Shown: piece after piece, positions 1 through 48,436 of the stretch
Layout: each line of letters begins with the position of its first letter
How positions within the stretch are numbered: position 1 is the stretch's first letter
Assembly (NCBI GenBank): GCA_037576195.1
Contig: JAQZDE010000054.1
Span: forward strand, 1 to 64,000
Direction: 5' to 3'
From: Phytoseiulus persimilis
Taxonomy: Eukaryota > Arthropoda > Arachnida > Mesostigmata > Phytoseiidae
Length of the DNA stretch: 64,000 nucleotides
Program-made: the position numbers and the translations under genes
The notes under the pieces: model-generated
The model's database searches: none
Told to the model about the DNA's origin: nothing
What the model saw: only the letters and a program-made list of their open reading frames with translations

Positions 1-333
1 TCGCGCCGTTTCGAGCCTGGTGATGAAAGACCAACGCAGGTTGGTTCGCCCACACCGCCCCCTCCTATCACCTTCATCGAGCGTACCATCGACACCTCTA
101 TAGAGGACGCAGACCGTTGGGACTTGTACTGCATTTTCTGCAGAAACAACAGGACGCCTGAATCAGTCTACAGAAACCATCCGCTCAGGGACAACCGCGG
201 AAATGTTGTGTGCCCCAGACTTCGAAGTTACAATTGTCCTACATGCAACAACGGCGGAGGGGACCGCGCTCACACCGCGAACTATTGTCCGAAGAACAGA
301 GCCGCTCTCTTCAATTCGTTCTTGAAGCCATGA
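1..333 (+). CDS. nanos: Nanos-type zinc-finger protein, unit 1 (5' end outside window)
   Basis: Nanos proteins bind RNA with Pumilio and recruit deadenylases to repress mRNAs in germ cells and embryos. The frame is open from the window edge to TGA at 331-333. The last 69 residues are a complete zf-nanos domain with two CCHC knuckles: CIFC, then H and C of the first, and CPTC, then H and C (AHTANYC) of the second. The family signature with VYRNH, LRSYNCP and GDRAHT is intact. A proline-rich stretch (TPPPPITF) precedes the domain. An AATAAA follows at about 376. The start codon is not visible and must lie upstream or in an earlier exon. The domain call is firm; activity of the gene is inferred only from the intact frame. 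Confidence 0.8.
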   Translation, partial: SRRFEPGDERPTQVGSPTPPPPITFIERTIDTSIEDADRWDLYCIFCRNNRTPESVYRNHPLRDNRGNVVCPRLRSYNCPTCNNGGGDRAHTANYCPKNRAALFNSFLKP

Positions 334-1539
334 CGGACGCGAGTTCATTGCCTTGGGGACCATGACAGTCCTCCCAATAAATTATCGAGCAGATGAAGAT
401 GTGTTTTTTCTTCTCAAAAAACCTTCGGAAGGGTAGTCTACTCAGTCTTAGCTAGGGTTCTGAATTCTTGGTCTTCGTTCCAAAGTTCTGTGGGAGGGTT
501 GTAGCATTGTAATTTTCCTGAACCAGTGAGATTTTGGAGCCAGAAGGAAGATGAACGAGAAAAAAAAACAGAATGGAAAAGCCATCTCACTAGCTGAGAC
601 CACGGGGATCAATCTATACGGAGTTTGAGTCCCAAAACAGAGATGCCGTAATGTCTCAGAGACGGGGCGAACTATGGTCGCGATCAGGATCAGCTCTCGC
701 GGCTCCCTCCCGACTCGGCAAGCCAAGATGAGCCGCGGAAAAGATTCGGGAAGTCTCCAGATTGAACCATCACTGCCTGGAACTGCTTTCTATCCAGCGA
801 GAACTATTCTGTCTTTACTCCCCAAGTAGCCACGATCAGAGGTAATCCCTCCGCCATGCCGCGTTTTCTCCTGATCTTCGACGTGGCGCGAGGCGTAGCA
901 TAGAGCAAGGGCGCAATGAATAGCAACTTCGCAGCGGAACACCTAACTTCTATCCAGTTTCCTGGATACCGCCTCGTACGATGTGGAGGATTCGCTACAA
1001 GGAATAGTACCGGCGAGAACGTCCCTCAGCGTGCAGAGCTCGATTTCGAGAGATGATCACGTGGTCTTCTGCTCTACATATCTACCTTTCCCTCTCTCAA
1101 CGATGGTATCTTGATCGAGCTCGACGAGGATCCTCGAGCTCATATGTTACCTTGCGACCTGCGACTTCAGAGCGCCTGATATGGAGAAATTGGATTGCTT
1201 GACGGGTTTGGATGAGTACGTGCTTTTCCATATACCTGAATCGGAAGCTTAAGCCCTCTATTGCCGAACTCTTATCGACTACTTCTTTCAGGTCCACTCC
1301 TCTGAGCAGTGGCTTGCTTCAGCAATTTCAGTTGCTGCGAGAGCTTGCATCGGACCGAGTTACTCAGTGAGTTGAATTTTTACTGTTGTTGTCCCAGAGA
1401 AGCTGGGTTCCCTGCACCTGCCCGAAGGAGCCTACACCTCTGGCCGCAACTGGATGGTGAGTCTTGCGATAAATTTCTGACCGGCTTCTGTCGTTCACAG
1501 ACTGCGTGCCATTTCGCGCCGTTTCGAGCCTGGTGATGA
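334..1539 (+). other. Spacer between nanos fingers of units 1 and 2
   Basis: This is unit sequence without a clear complete gene. Two stretches could be upstream exons of unit 2: 1292-1366, ending in a GTGAGT donor, and 1398-1456, flanked by CCCAG and GTGAGT. A third acceptor (GTTCACAG) ends at 1500. The first stretch has a frame rich in Leu and Gln (LLQQFQLLRELASDR). I could not join these stretches to the finger frame without hitting a stop, so I do not call a full gene model. Around 745-775 lies a single copy of the sequence that became the minisatellite in the next spacer. Confidence 0.5.
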
Positions 1540-1845
1540 AGACCAACGCAGGTTGGTTCGCCCACACCGCCCCCTCCTATCACCTTCATCGAGCGTACCA
1601 TCGACACCTCTATAGAGGACGCAGACCGTTGGGACTTGTACTGCATTTTCTGCAGAAACAACAGGACGCCTGAATCAGTCTACAGAAACCATCCGCTCAG
1701 GGACAACCGCGGAAATGTTGTGTGCCCCAGACTTCGAAGTTACAATTGTCCTACATGCAACAACGGCGGAGGGGACCGCGCTCACACCGCGAACTATTGT
1801 CCGAAGAACAGAGCCGCTCTCTTCAATTCGTTCTTGAAGCCATGA
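1540..1845 (+). CDS. nanos: Nanos-type zinc-finger exon, unit 2
   Basis: This is the second copy of the nanos finger. Residues 33-101 of this open stretch are identical to unit 1, including all eight metal ligands, and end in FNSFLKP plus TGA. One A is missing from the GATGAAAGACC run seen in unit 1 (near 1535), so the frame upstream of the domain differs from unit 1 and meets TGA TGA just before 1540. Either the exon starts downstream of this point in the mature gene, or this copy has lost its N-terminal part. The identical finger with a shifted upstream frame suggests very recent duplication followed by decay, or alternative use of frames. Confidence 0.65.
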   Translation, partial: RPTQVGSPTPPPPITFIERTIDTSIEDADRWDLYCIFCRNNRTPESVYRNHPLRDNRGNVVCPRLRSYNCPTCNNGGGDRAHTANYCPKNRAALFNSFLKP

Positions 1846-2250
1846 CGGACGCGAGTTCATTGCCTTGGGGACCATGACAGTCCTCCCAATAAATTATCGA
1901 GCAGATGAAGATGTGTTTTTTCTTTTAAAAAAACCTCGGAGGGTAGTCTACTCAGTCTTAGCTAGGGTTCTGAATTCTTGGTCTTCGTTCCAAAGTTGTG
2001 TGAGAGGGTTGTAGGATTGTAATTTTCCTGAACCAGTGAGATTTGGGGCCAGAAGGAAGATGAACGAGAAAGAAAACAGAATGAAAAAGCCATCTCACCA
2101 GCTGAGACCACAGGGATCCTTACTATATATAACCAGCCGGCCTTTGGCCGACTGGAGTCGGCCGCGCTGCGCGCGGTTGGACGGCGCTCTCTGCCATCGA
2201 GGCACTTTTCTCTCCCTTCACTGGTTCAGCATTCTGATTCTGAAATATAT
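1846..2250 (+). other. Spacer downstream of nanos unit 2
   Basis: This stretch copies the 3' flank of unit 1: an AATAAA near 1888, then the same run ending in a purine-rich stretch at about 2040-2090. From about 2120 it departs from unit 1 (ATATATAACC, then a GC-rich block with CGCGCGG) and leads into the minisatellite. No gene is visible. Confidence 0.5.
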
Positions 2251-3050
2251 GGTCAGATTGGTCTCGGAATTACCCCTCCAGAGTTGGAAAGAAATGCTCA
2301 GATTGGCCCCGGAATCACCCCTCCAGAGTTGGGAAGTAATGCTCAGATTAGCCTCGGAATCACCCCTCCAGAGTTGGAAAAAAATGCTCAGATTGGCCCC
2401 GGAATCTCTCCTCCAGAGTTGGAAAGTAATGCTCAGATTGGTCTCGGAATAACCCCTCCAGAGTTGGAAAGTAATGCTCAGATTGGCCTCGGAATCACCC
2501 CTCCAGAGTTGGAAATAAATGCTCAGATTGGCCCCGGAATCTCTCCTCCAGAGTTGGAAAGTAATGCTCAGATTGGTCTCGGAATAACCCCTCCAGAGTT
2601 GGAAAGTAATGCTCAGATTGACCCCGGAATCACCCCTCCAGAGTTGGAAAGAAATCCTCAGATTGGTCCCGGAATCACCCCTCCAGAGTTGGGAGGTAAT
2701 GCTCAGATTCACCCCGGAATCACCCCTCCAGAGTTGGAAAGTAATGCTCAGATTCACCCCGGAATCACCCCTCCAGAGTTGGAAAGTAATGCTCAGATTC
2801 AACCCGGAATCACCCCTCCAGAGTCGGAAAGTAATGCTCAGATTGGTCTCGGAATCACCCCTCCAGAGTTGGAAAGTAATGCTCAGATTGGTCTCGGAAT
2901 CTCTCCTCCAGAGTTGGAAAGTAATGCTCAGATTGGTCTCGGAATAACCCCTCCAGAGTTGGAAAGTAATGCTCAGATTGAGCCCGGAATCACCCCTCCA
3001 GAGTTGGAAAGAAATGCTCAGATTGAGCCCGGAATCACCCCTCCAGATTG
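2251..3050 (+). repeat. 45-base minisatellite, about 17-18 copies
   Basis: The repeat unit reads roughly CAGATTGGTCTCGGAATCAC followed by CCCTCCAGAGTTGGAAAGTA and ATGCT. Copies differ mainly in the GGTCTC/GGCCCC/CACCCC/GAGCCC block and in ATCACCCCT versus ATCTCTCCT. Because 45 is divisible by three, several frames stay open across the array: plus-strand repeats containing PGITPPELESNAQI, plus-strand repeats containing SESPLQSWKVMLRL, and minus-strand repeats containing SITFQLWRGDS. The ATCTCT variant followed by a GGTCTC unit recurs in blocks, so two- or three-unit segments were duplicated together. The last unit runs into GATTGAACCAT, which matches the single-copy sequence near 760 in the previous unit. 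Confidence 0.95.
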
Positions 3051-3581
3051 AACCATGACTGCCTGGAACTGGTTCCTATACAGCGCGAACGATTCTGTTT
3101 CTACTCCCCAAGTAGCCTCTATCAGAGGTTATTCCCTCCGACCATACCGCGTGTCCTCCTGATTTTTTCGACGTGGCCCGAGGCGTAGCATAGAGCAAGG
3201 GCGCAATAAATAGCAACCTGGCAGCGAAGCACTTAAGGTCGATCCAGTTTCCTGGATATCACCCCCCCTTAAGCCTTCTCTTGCCGAACTCCCATCGATT
3301 ACTTCTTTCAGGTCCTCTCCTCTGAGCACTGGCTTGCTTCAGCAATTTCAGTTGCTGCGAGAGCTTGCATCGGACATAGTTACTCAGTTAGTTGAATTTT
3401 TTTATTGTTGTTGTCCCAGAGAGGTTGAGTCCTATGCACCTGCCTGAAGGAGCCTACACCTCCGGCCGTAACTGGATGGCGAGTGTTGCGATAGATTTCT
3501 GACCAGCTCCTGTCGTTTACAGACTGCGTGCCATTTCGCGCCGTTTCGAGCCTGGTGATGAAAGACCCACGCAGGTTAGTT

Positions 3582-3867
3582 CGCCCACACCGCCCCCTCT
3601 GTCACCTTCATCGAGCGCTCCAGCGACACCTCTATAGACAACGCAGACCGTTGGGACTTGTACTGCATTTTCTGCAGAAACAACAGGACACCTGAATCAG
3701 CCTACAGAAACCATCCGCTCTGGGACAACCGCGGAAATTTCGTGTGCTCCAGACTTCGAAGTTACAATTGTCCTACATGCAACAACGGCGCAGGGGACCG
3801 CGCTCACACCGCGAACTATTGTCCGAAGAACAGAGCCGCTCTCATCAATTCGTTCTTGAAGCCATGA
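3582..3867 (+). CDS. nanos: Nanos-type zinc-finger exon, unit 3 (diverged)
   Basis: This is the third copy of the nanos finger. All eight Cys/His ligands are kept (CIFC...H...C; CPTC...H...YC), but several residues differ from units 1 and 2: SAYRNH for SVYRNH, LWDNRGNF for LRDNRGNV, CSRLR for CPRLR, and NNGAG for NNGGG. The proline that follows the first knuckle's last cysteine is lost. Upstream, a one-base deletion in the CCCCCTC run and a TAG near 3579 cut the frame. The AATAAA seen after units 1 and 2 has become AATGAA, so polyadenylation may be weakened. The copy may still encode a finger, but it looks like a decaying paralogue. Confidence 0.6.
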
Positions 3868-4378
3868 CGGACACGAGTTCATTGCCTTGGGGACCATGAC
3901 AGTCCTCCCAATGAATACCCGAGCAGATGAAGATGTGTTTTTCTTCCCAGAAAACCCTCGGAGGGCAGTCAACTCAGTCTTAGCTCGGGTTCTGGATTCT
4001 TGGCCTTCGTTTCAAAGTTGTGAGTGAAGGTTGTAGGATTGTCATTTTCCCGAACCAGTGAGATTTTGGTGCCAGGAGAAAGATGAACGAGGGAAAAAAC
4101 AGAATGGAAAAGCCATCCCACTATCTGGGTCCAATCTATCCCGAGCTTAAGTCCCTATACAGAGATGCCATATCGTCTCAAAGACGGGGTGAACTATGGT
4201 CGCTATCAGAATCAGCTCTCGCAGCTCCCTCCCTACTCGGCAGGCCAGGAACTTTTGCTTGACGAGTTTGGATGAGTACGTGCTCTTTCATATACCTGAC
4301 TCGGAATCTTAAGACTTCTCTTGCCGAACTCTCATCGATTACTTGTTTCAGGTCCACTCCTCTGAGCACTGGCTTGCT
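3868..4378 (+). other. Spacer between nanos unit 3 and unit 4
   Basis: This is a diverged copy of the same inter-finger spacer, including the TTTCAG/GTCCACTCC stretch at about 4346-4360. It is shorter than the unit 2-3 spacer because it lacks the minisatellite and part of the middle. No gene is seen. Confidence 0.45.
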
Positions 4379-4494
4379 TCAGCAGTTCCAGTTGCTGCGA
4401 GAGCTTGCATCGGACCGAGTTCGGCAGTGAGTTGAATTTGTTATTCTCGTTGCCCCGCAGAAGCTGAGTCGCTTTCACGTACCTGAAGGAGCAC

Positions 4495-5760
4495 ATTTTT
4501 TGAACAACTCACAAAGGGAAGACCCTATGGTTCACAAAAGGAACTGCGAGTGCGAAAAACAGGAGAGTCATGGGGAAAAAAAAAGCATTTACGCGCGACC
4601 CAGACGAAGGGAAAATTCAACTGGGGTGTGGGGCTCATTTGGATAATACCCACTAGAAAAACCAATGGCTCATTATCTGGAAGATGCGAGAGGATAGAAG
4701 TTCGAAAGAGGTTGGGGTTGTAGGTTGAAGGAAAGGCTTGAGAGGGGAGGGAATTCCAAAGGCGAGATGTGCGAGGAAAGAAGATAGAGTCGAACTGAGC
4801 AGAACGATTGGTGGATAATTGGACAGGATAGGGGTATTGTTTGGCAGTACGTCTTGTCACACGGACGGGACCGAAAGAGGAGGAACGAGAGAAGAGATTC
4901 CAGTTCAGCATCTTCCATGGAAGAATCGGTAGAATAGACGGAGGTCGGCGAGCTTGCGTCGGAAGGACAAGGTTTCGAGGGAGAAGGACAGAGTCTCATC
5001 ACCAATGAGGCGAACAGCACGCTTTGCATAGAATCGAGGATGGAAAGGGAAGAGGGAGCGGCGCTCCTCCAGACATGCGAGCGGTACTCGAGCGCGGGAC
5101 GAATTTGGGTTTTATAGAGCAAAAGAAGGTGAGGCGGGAAGAATAGCGATTGGCTCGAAAAAGGAAGCCCAGCTTCTGGGAAGCTGATTGACCCATGGTT
5201 GCGATATGATAGTGCCATTTGAGATTCGGAGAGAGGGACAGGCCTAATATTGAGACAGCTGACGAGGGGGTCAATTTGTTGTCATCGAAAGAAATGTCGA
5301 GAGGTGTGGGCCGGGTTTTCTTCGAGAAGAGAGAGAGTTGTGTCGTTCGAGAATAGAACTGGACCAAGTTAGTTGCGCACCAGTTCAGAATTTTTTGAAG
5401 ATCGAAATTGAGGGAGTCTAGCATGGTGATTTGAGAGGAGCTTCTTTGGGCAGGGGACGGGTACTTTTTGAAAGAGTACCCAGGGTGAAGCGTACTGTCA
5501 TCCGCAAAGCTGTGGATGGGGTTCGAGGTGGAGACGAATAGATCATTGATATGCATCAGAAAGAGAGTTGGAGAGAGTACTGAACCCTGGGGTACGCCCG
5601 CACTCAATGAGTGAGAACTGGAGAGAGCACCATCGGCCATAACCTATATGGAGCGGTGACTGTGAAAACTAGAAATCCAGTTACAGAGCTTCGGCTGGAT
5701 TCCGAAGGAGGGGATCTTGTTGAGGAGAGCTGAATGCCGAACTCCATCAAATGCTCCTGT
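4495..5760 (-). mobile_element. Non-LTR retrotransposon (LINE) reverse-transcriptase fragment
   Basis: Read on the minus strand, 5750-4525 encodes the middle and end of a LINE reverse transcriptase. In order it shows motif A remnants (AFDGVRHSALLNKI), motif B (AGVPQGSVLSPTLFL), motif C with FADD in place of YADD (SFADDSTLH), and the thumb region (YKTQIRPALEYRSHVW). The frame shifts at least twice (around 5130 and 4900), and everything upstream of motif A is missing, so the copy is dead. A short A run (AAAAAA in minus orientation near 4497) marks the 3' end. The style suggests the CR1/Jockey group, but the exact clade needs a tree. Confidence 0.85.
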
Positions 5761-6025
5761 CCTCCTCCTTCGAAACCTTGTCCTTCCTACGCAAGGTAGC
5801 CGACCTCTGTCTATACTACCGGATCTTCCATGGAAGATGATCAACTGAAATCTCTTCTCTCGTTCCTCCCCTTTCGGCCCCCGTCCGTGTGACCAGACGT
5901 ACTGCCAAACAACACCCCTATTCTGTCCAATTATTCACAAATCGTTCTGCTCAGTTCGACTCTACTTTCTTCCCTCGCACATCTGGCCTTTGGAATGCCC
6001 TCCTCTCTGAAGCATCAAATGCTGG
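5761..6025 (+). mobile_element. Second LINE 3' fragment in opposite orientation
   Basis: The plus strand from 5761 repeats, in inverted orientation, the sequence found on the minus strand at about 4990-4760. It includes CGAAACCTTGTCCTTCC, TCTTCCATGGAAGATG and a frame with RRTAKQ and NRSAQFDSTFFPRTSGLWN. It is the same element family as the neighbouring minus-strand copy. The part it represents is already present in that copy, so this is not a single inverted insertion of the twin-priming type. It looks like two insertions, or an insertion plus an inverted duplication, meeting head to head at about 5760. The right edge joins nanos unit 4 sequence near 6026. Confidence 0.75.
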
Positions 6026-6157
6026 TTTCTCACCGGCTGCTGTCGTTCACAGACTGCGTGCCGTTCCGAGCCTGGTGATGGAAGACCTACGCAGGTTGGT
6101 TCGCCCACACCACCCCCCTCCCCCTGACACCTTCATCGAGCCTACCATCGACAGTTC

Positions 6158-7462
6158 CAGTGGCGTAACTAGCAGAAGGGGGGGCGAGGGTGCGGGCCGC
6201 TCCGGGCGGGACCAGAGGCGACATTCTCGCTTCTGGCTTTTTCATCAAGGAGCTCTGGTTGATAAGCCATCGCAGGAGTGAGAATGGTGAGCTCAAGGGG
6301 AGTCAATCACGTGCAGCGAGTTAATGAACTACGAAAGGAGATTCGATGGAAAACGACGCGGGCTGAGCGGAGCTTATCCCACTTTATTCGTCGATTCATT
6401 TGTACTGATTGGGAGCTGAAATCCAGCACGTAATACCAGTCATCGTGAGAACAGAAAAATAATTGCATATGAATCAATAACGGCACATTTCGCAGAATAC
6501 TTGACAATCAATAGAAGCGATCTTGCGGCTTCGTGAATTTGAGTGCATCCCTTCATTCCGCTTCATGGACAGCTTCCCCTCATCACGATCCCGAACAAGA
6601 GACACATTCTTCAAACACAGATCAAGGCTCCGAAATCTCCCACCCAGTACTCTGCTGTGGTCATCGGGTTATTCGAGAACACTGGCATTGGCACACCCCG
6701 GTGTTGCGGAAGTGACGCTAGGAAGTGAAGGGAGGTGCCCACATGTAGCAAACGATTTAGAATGAAATAATCGCTCTCCTAGGAAACCATTTTCGGGAAG
6801 AAAATCGAAGCGGGCGGTGGAAGACGAACATTTTTGAGTCGCCTGTGACAGCACGCCAGAAGTGTCGCATGACGATCAGATGAGCCAGATACTTCGCTGC
6901 GTGAAATTCGGTGGATCCCATCCCAGCGTAGTCGAATCTTCCGCTCATTTTATCGAAGCGGAGGGTGAATCTGCAGAGGAGCTGACACAGTTGATCCTCC
7001 AGAAGACTTCCCAGACACATTCTGCGACCGATGTGAAGTTCGCCACGGAACACTCGCGCATGAGACTTTCGGACGCGATGAATTATGATACACCAATGAT
7101 TACCTCGCAGCTCTCCCCTAGTGAGCTGATTATACATCGTTGAAGACGACAAAGCGACTGCTCGGAGCCTGGGAACGCAACAAGGAAAGATCCGCCGAGA
7201 TAGCTCACGACTGAATTGAAAGTTTGGTTTGTGTATACACGCATCAGATCAAATAAGCCACGAACCAGGTGGATAGAGTCTGACAATCTCGATATGAACG
7301 AGAAAGAGTTCAGAGTCGAGCGGAAAAACTTCAACAAAAATCTTGGAAGTTGTTTAACGCAGGGGAGCGATGCAATTGGCGAGAGGAGTCTGCGTCAGCA
7401 TCTGCGATCCTCGAAATCTCCAAGTTCCGCCCCGGGCGGCATTTCGCCTAGCTAGGCCTCTG
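6158..7462 (+). mobile_element. hAT-like non-autonomous DNA transposon
   Basis: The left end reads CAGTGGCGTAACTAG and the right end CTAGCTAGGCCTCTG. The two are inverted repeats matching at 12 of 15 positions. The bases on either side (GACAGTTC on the left, TACACCTC on the right) are both close to GACACCTC, which occurs once in nanos units 1 and 2 at exactly this point. That fits an 8-base target duplication, the hAT hallmark. Both ends carry GC-rich blocks (GGGCGAGG, CCGCCCCGGGCGGC). The roughly 1.27 kb interior has only short open frames and no transposase that I can see, so it would need a helper enzyme. Confidence 0.7.
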
Positions 7463-7594
7463 TACACCTCTATAGAGGACGCAGACCGTTGAGACTTGTA
7501 CTGCATTTTCTGCAGGAGCAACAGGAAGTCTGAATCAGTCTACAAAACCCGGTCAGAGACGATCGCGGGAATATTGTGTGCCCCAGAATTCGAA

Positions 7595-8147
7595 GTATTT
7601 CTCAGACACTGAGGTCGTCCAGGCGATCAGCGGCTTCTGCACGCCCCAATAGGCGCGATCAGCCAAACCGGATTAACAGCTTCCCCGGAACACGGGAGAA
7701 AATATATGCATACACTAAAGTCGATTTTATTCTCAAAAAAACGCACCAGACAACGACCTGCCAGAAAAGCAAGTTTGTCAGACAACTAGCACATCGGCAA
7801 ACGATTCCGGCTGGTAGCGACCTCATCTGATGCGCTTTTTCGAGGAGAAAACGGAAAAAAATAAGGTTCCTCATCTGCGGAATCATAGGCTAGGCTGTTG
7901 TGTTTCCCTCACTCACTCGTAAATACTGCCTGGAACCGCCATGCGAGTCGGTCAACATCTTCTTGCGTGGAGTGAACGAAAAGCGATCATGTTGCTCAAT
8001 CGAGACGCTCCTTGCACAGGAGGCTCCTCCGTCGGGACGCCAGAAAAAGCCTTTGGAGATGGGGTGCGAGGAATTTCTGGGGACGAAGCGCAATGACGTT
8101 GTGATAACGAAGCGGACGCACATTTGTGAAGCAGGCGATCGAGGAAG
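7595..8147 (+). other. Stretch between nanos array and kinase gene
   Basis: No gene was recognised. The stretch holds the last traces of nanos flank and then unique sequence. It may include 5' exons or the promoter of the kinase-like gene that begins downstream. Confidence 0.4.

Positions 8148-46188: not shown

Positions 46189-48436
<2,248 letters not shown>

Follow-up and report, generated by a model that had tools for sequence, protein, structure and literature searches.

The first 7,596 bases of a 64,000-nucleotide stretch of Phytoseiulus persimilis DNA (hereafter the window), which forms the left end of the 75,631-base contig C53 (GenBank JAQZDE010000054.1), hold four nanos-type zinc-finger units, all oriented alike. 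This four-unit array is in decay, and the larger interest lies in the surrounding genome, where we count 59 nanos-type loci. In other animals, the nanos gene is a conserved germline regulator that normally occurs in one to few copies. We believe, with a probability of roughly 0.6, that the loci in this mite reflect a lineage-specific amplification, by birth and death of copies, of a family of Nanos-like RNA-binding genes, the products of which may act as diverged helpers or competitors.

The assembly (181 megabases (Mb) in 127 contigs, with ~50% guanine plus cytosine and four large scaffolds of 54.7, 52.0, 38.9, and 28.1 Mb) was searched with the zf-nanos model PF05741. All 64 candidates were scored, giving 60 matches, 57 of them over the cut-off. 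The 59 loci are these 57 plus two relics, namely C1:17891727 (below the cut-off and a clear relic) and window unit 4; C3:19864747 and C4:270580, below the cut-off and judged to be chance matches, were dropped from all locus counts. The loci fall into six clusters and six scattered loci (Table 1, where C1, C2, and so on denote contigs), and classes were assigned by eye from the fingers and reading frames. Class A consists of the clusters on C53, at C1 17.89 Mb, and at C3 28 Mb, together with a relic at C3 35.74 Mb. The scattered locus at C2 4.00 Mb belongs to class B, and a third nanos class, class C, sits within the class B cluster of C3 at 31.708-31.725 Mb. All eight zinc ligands without a stop were found in 49 of the 57 fetched loci and, with window unit 3 added, in 50 of 59. 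This count includes window units 2 and 3 despite their broken frames upstream, and the wholeness of upstream exons was examined only in the window and in its C1 relative. In the C2 5 Mb array, 12 of 13 loci have open frames of at least 210 residues, and two loci of the C3:28 Mb array, 5,402 base pairs (bp) apart, are identical at 3164 of 3165 bases. Such near-identical copies next to wrecked ones are, as far as sequence can tell, a birth-and-death pattern.

The assignment of the finger to Nanos rests on several observations. Window units 1 to 3 score above the PF05741 cut-off of 27 bits (Table 1), and the three solved chains matched at E values up to 0.01 (5kl1, 5kl8, and 3alr) are all Nanos, two from the fly and one from another Nanos protein. 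Units 1 to 3 share with fly nanos, vertebrate NANOS1-3, and PF05741 the double CCHC finger with eight ligands, and they retain the residues F321, T366, and Y369 of the fly Nanos pocket. Unit 4 is not among the genome-wide zf-nanos matches, and its set of eight ligands is incomplete. There are also differences from fly Nanos. The second knuckle, with x7 in the fly, is one residue longer here (C-x2-C-x8-H); K368 is replaced by Asn in units 1 to 3, whereas the other five RNA contacts (the pocket residues, N325, and Y352) are retained; and the tail after the finger is short (12 residues) and dissimilar by eye to the Pumilio-contacting C-terminal tail of the fly protein. A search of NCBIfam, whose models are built for prokaryotes, matched no family. 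The AlphaFold model of unit 1 had a mean predicted local distance difference test score of 44.7 and was not used.

The RNA-contact residues separate the classes. In fly Nanos, PMC4995099 describes F321, T366, and Y369 as the pocket for the -1U base, K368 as touching its phosphate, and N325 and Y352 as serving the next bases; the K368Q change lowers repression to 32% versus 75% (same source). We compared these positions in 52 of the 59 loci, that is, all except C1:17891727, C3:35742067, C1:5457362, C3:31643114, C3:31725265, and window units 3 and 4. At K368, Asn is found in 18 of 18 class A copies, Ser in 28 of 28 class B copies, and Lys in three of three class C copies, while the unclassed genes at C2 2.00, C3 9.87, and C1 18.30 Mb have Lys, Arg, and Lys, respectively. 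Window unit 3, outside this count, likewise carries Asn. The pocket is retained throughout the 52 loci except for F321M (3/3 class C) and Y369F (15/15 in the C3:28 Mb array), and N325 is Lys in all 28 class B copies. Among the 52, only the gene at C2:2.00 Mb has all six fly contacts and is therefore the best candidate for an ancestral-type gene. From these class-wide substitutions we infer that the amplified classes may bind RNA differently.

Ratios of nonsynonymous to synonymous differences per site (pN/pS) suggest that part of the family is maintained. The pooled values of five groups, whose pairs are not independent, are 0.36, 0.53, 0.47, 0.28, and 0.58. With disjoint pairs, the ratio is 0.55 in the C2 array (5 pairs, P 0.016), 0.39 in class B on C3 (6 pairs, P 1.5e-7), and 0.20 in class C (1 pair, P 0.002), and 0.44 for four groups together (P 2e-9). 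Classes B and C thus appear to be under constraint among undamaged copies, and the youngest class A array gives no clear signal.

Self-comparison of the window and the zf-nanos scores of units 1 to 3 confirm what the earlier note had proposed from the letters alone, namely four tandem nanos-type units in ~7.6 kilobases. Its description of the fingers also stands. Those of units 1 and 2 are identical, within 300 identical bases of 300 over positions 59-358; that of unit 3 is diverged and has all eight ligands; and that of unit 4 is destroyed, with an in-frame TGA and the second half lost. The state of the units themselves is another matter. Unit 2 is no plain intact twin of unit 1, as one base (A) is missing relative to units 1 and 3 at ~1535-1541, ~100 bases 5' of the finger, which is thereby out of frame. 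Unit 3 lacks exon A and has a frameshift at ~3596, upstream of the finger, although the donor site of its exon B retains GT (GTGAGT changed to GTTAGT), and unit 4 is interrupted by two insertions. By appearance, units 2 to 4 look like pseudogenes. The only undamaged last exon in the window is that of unit 1, which the contig end truncates at its 5' side, window base 1 being base 1 of C53.

The relatedness of the units points to duplicates of different ages. Units 1 and 2 are 97.5% identical over 610 bases with differences mainly in the 3' flank, and their identity fits a recent duplication or a gene conversion across the coding end. Identity between units 3 and 1 is lower, at ~90%. Between unit 1 and the C1 relative there are 26 synonymous and 20 nonsynonymous changes on ~50 and ~184 sites, and the analysis that gave the five pooled values put this pair at a pN/pS of 0.149. 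Together with the comparison of units 3 and 1 given below, this suggests a long-lasting constraint that later lapsed in unit 3. Because units 2 to 4 look like pseudogenes and unit 3 shows no constraint against unit 1, the window speaks more of decay than of live regulators. The nearly identical pair in another class A array agrees with the earlier suggestion of changing copy number. A dispersed transposon-borne fragment, which the earlier note had envisaged at hundreds of loci, is not supported: the finger DNA occurs at six places confined to two regions, with four copies on C53 and two on C1 (81% and 77% identity), and a spacer stretch, counting itself, occurs 11 times in a search that can miss common repeats. 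Taken together, the earlier interpretation is partly supported, and the array accounts for a small share of an expansion that spans the genome.

The window array also resembles other sites outside the finger. Window bases 1000-1137 are 72-75% identical to sequence ~490 bases upstream of the fingers in six of the 15 units of the C3:28 Mb array. This is likely to be a promoter or 5' region common to the two arrays, which would then share more than the finger. Bases 758-1075 are 71% identical to two places at C1 51.17 Mb, a duplicated pair (L070 and L071) where no nanos finger was found; the module there may be a shared promoter or a mobile fragment.

Table 1 Features of the window array and nanos-type loci in the assembly. 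Positions without a contig are window bases; extents marked ~ are from self-comparison.
Feature	Position	Strand	Description
Unit 1, last coding exon	1-333	+	Unit extends from base 1; undamaged nanos finger 130-294; stop 331-333; frame open from base 1; zf-nanos 73.8 bits
Unit 2, upstream module	758-1137	+	Probably promoter or 5' region
Unit 2	1181-1845	+	Extent ~755-2118; exon A 1181-1215, exon B 1292-1366, exon C 1501-1845; finger 1642-1806; zf-nanos 74.1 bits (open part)
Minisatellite between units 2 and 3	2253-3047		45-bp period, 17.7 copies, 90% matches (Tandem Repeats Finder)
Unit 3	3268-3867	+	Extent ~3041-4250; exon B-like and exon C parts, no exon A; last coding exon 3523-3867; finger 3664-3828; zf-nanos 61.4 bits
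Unit 4	4255-7596	+	Extent from 4255; exon A/B region 4255-4492; exon C start 6014-6153; finger remnant 7464-7596
Insertion in unit 4	4493-6013		Retroelement fragments that in part form inverted repeats
Second insertion in unit 4	6154-7463		~1.3 kilobases; imperfect inverted ends, read by eye
Cluster C53	window 1-7596		4 loci; class A
Cluster C1	17.89 Mb		2 loci; class A
Cluster C3	28.25-28.28 Mb		15 loci, mostly 1.8 kilobases apart; class A
Cluster C2	5.15-5.52 Mb	both	13 loci; class B
Cluster C3	31.61-31.74 Mb		14 loci; ten class B and four class C
Cluster C3	36.02-36.08 Mb		5 loci
Scattered loci	C1 5.46, C1 18.30, C2 2.00, C2 4.00, C3 9.87, C3 35.74 Mb		One locus each

Spacing between the four units is uneven (1512, 2022, and 3838 bases), because of the 45-bp minisatellite, which precedes unit 3 within the array, and the two insertions (~4493-6013 and ~6154-7463), which leave unit 4 in three pieces. 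The exon model of unit 2 is phase-consistent, with predicted splice sites. The first insertion, whose ends were placed where the unit homology stops, has a weak RVT_1 match on the minus strand (26.3 bits against a Pfam cut-off of 29.6, E 7.3e-6), and the second is perhaps a non-autonomous DNA transposon. The minisatellite has open frames of 339 residues on the plus strand, without a Pfam match, and 285 residues on the minus strand. As its period is divisible by three, long open frames occur on both strands, and they are probably not a gene. Elsewhere in the window, an Rpt6-like gene (26S proteasome ATPase) is located at 46410-47585; C2:7702019 matches it with 73% DNA identity over 743 bases and is perhaps a second Rpt6 gene. 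The assembly also has 112 matches to Chitin_bind_4, a family typical of arthropods. Searches of it for exact occurrences of two general 18S primer patterns, for COX1, and for an exact TTAGG run gave no match, and ribosomal DNA and the mitochondrion may be absent from the assembly.

In the amplification that we favor, the sequence itself shows that short double-CCHC nanos genes were duplicated both in tandem and in larger blocks to give at least 59 loci, with one class A array in the window. Undamaged copies elsewhere would encode Nanos-like adaptor proteins in which, as in fly and vertebrate Nanos, the finger grips RNA and the N-terminal part recruits a repressor. Classes A and B have retained the base pocket and lack the phosphate-contacting lysine, and for that reason they would probably bind RNA more weakly than the C2:2.00 Mb copy or bind other targets. 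They could thus act as diverged helpers or competitors of that copy, with germ cells or early embryos as the most likely setting.

Several results weigh against this amplification of working regulators. The disjoint-pair test of the C3:28 Mb class A array (14 copies, 5 pairs) gave 0.79 with P 0.28 and does not decide. Between window units 3 and 1 there are two synonymous and eight nonsynonymous changes, a ratio of 1.07, indicating no constraint. The selection tests omitted damaged copies (one of 15, one of 13, two of ten, and one of four, the one of 15 being kept in the pooled analysis) and are therefore tilted towards constraint; their pairs were picked by a greedy procedure, and tests of this kind would be upset by gene conversion. 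Class C, with four loci, is duplicated too, yet it keeps the lysine and has F321M, so that loss of the lysine is not tied to duplication everywhere. The missing base of unit 2 sits in a short A run, where an assembly error is possible. The tree of finger exons that the earlier note had proposed agrees with the classes, but resolves few forks: it is based on 55 columns, with 15 of 30 inner branches open and two starred, and omits C1:17891727, C3:35742067, C1:5457362, and five damaged fingers, identical fingers being entered once. Finally, a regular-expression scan for a CNOT1-interacting motif (NIM) found none in the forward frames of the 59 oriented stretches, some of which reach only ~700 bases upstream, with window units 3 and 4 left out; contact with a repressor is therefore assumed only. 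According to PMC4003280, a NIM was not detected in insects; the motif is thus not strictly defining for Nanos.

Part of this evidence would suit a family made up largely of non-functional debris, left by tandem duplication in a transposon-rich setting, in which few genes still work. Window units 2 to 4 and seven other loci are damaged (not counting C1:5457362, whose first residues may be on another exon), unit 4 has received insertions, and the ratio in the largest class A array is the 0.79 given above. Between two class B copies of C2 there is also a match to DUF7083, presumably a retroelement-related family (29.8 bits, cut-off 27; L069 349-1005, C2 5.19 Mb). Against it stand the ligands kept at 50 of 59 loci and the constraint among undamaged copies of classes B and C, and we regard this explanation as possible but unlikely.

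An amplification for dosage, in which many near-identical copies supply much Nanos-like product without new functions, would account for the C3:28 Mb and C2:5 Mb arrays, where seven fingers in one and six in the other are identical, and for a pair that is 99.9% identical over 1092 bases. It does not sit well with the class-wide changes at RNA-contact positions, the existence of damaged copies, or the deep divergence of the family (synonymous divergence of at least 0.76 or saturated in 10 of 12 representative pairs). We consider dosage a rather unlikely cause of the expansion.

Two further ideas involve genetic conflict. Matches to PUF repeats, the domain of the Nanos partner Pumilio, number 15 at two loci in the genome, compared with dozens of loci in the two amplified classes; the two PUF loci also count in favor of the amplification described above. 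It is conceivable, if doubtful, that these classes, both without the phosphate-contacting lysine, form a new layer of RNA regulation in the germline that works without Pumilio or competes with it, and that genetic conflict, for example over paternal genome elimination, is the driving force. Somewhat more generally, copies could be kept because they help or oppose a selfish element, or one of the parental genomes, in germ cells. The turnover of copies, the several clusters, and the young blocks are in line with this, and males of phytoseiid mites lose the paternal genome (PMC6902594). As no ratio is clearly above 1, that of unit 3 being 1.07, we find such conflict improbable. It is very improbable that one locus was falsely duplicated during assembly, although the window array stops at a contig end and two loci agree at 3164 of 3165 bases, since most array copies differ by substitutions and insertions and the remaining clusters are internal to contigs 38.9-54.7 Mb long. 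The idea that C53 is a duplicate haplotype contig is not supported either, as the next-best place for its Rpt6 gene, the one gene tested, is only 73% identical.

A lineage-specific amplification of Nanos-like proteins, if correct, would offer a natural test of regulator duplication, with 50 ligand-complete fingers at 59 loci and class-wide RNA-contact changes. Such a test would address how RNA targets change and perhaps how a regulator escapes from its partner. A nanos expansion of this size was not reported in the open-access titles and abstract openings covered, a scope outside which most subscription papers fall. Vertebrates have three nanos paralogues, and some fishes carry additional copies of nanos1 (PMC5932020); the copy number here is far above that. 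Tandem birth-and-death gene families of arthropods likewise combine recent and old copies with pseudogenes at one site, but the family amplified here is one whose members regulate RNA in the germline and usually come in few copies. The Stellate and Slx/Sly families offer a second comparison, as they too are amplified genes, and the presumed role of the mite family is similarly in the germline; those families were amplified in genetic conflict, which for the mite loci is one of the less probable readings.

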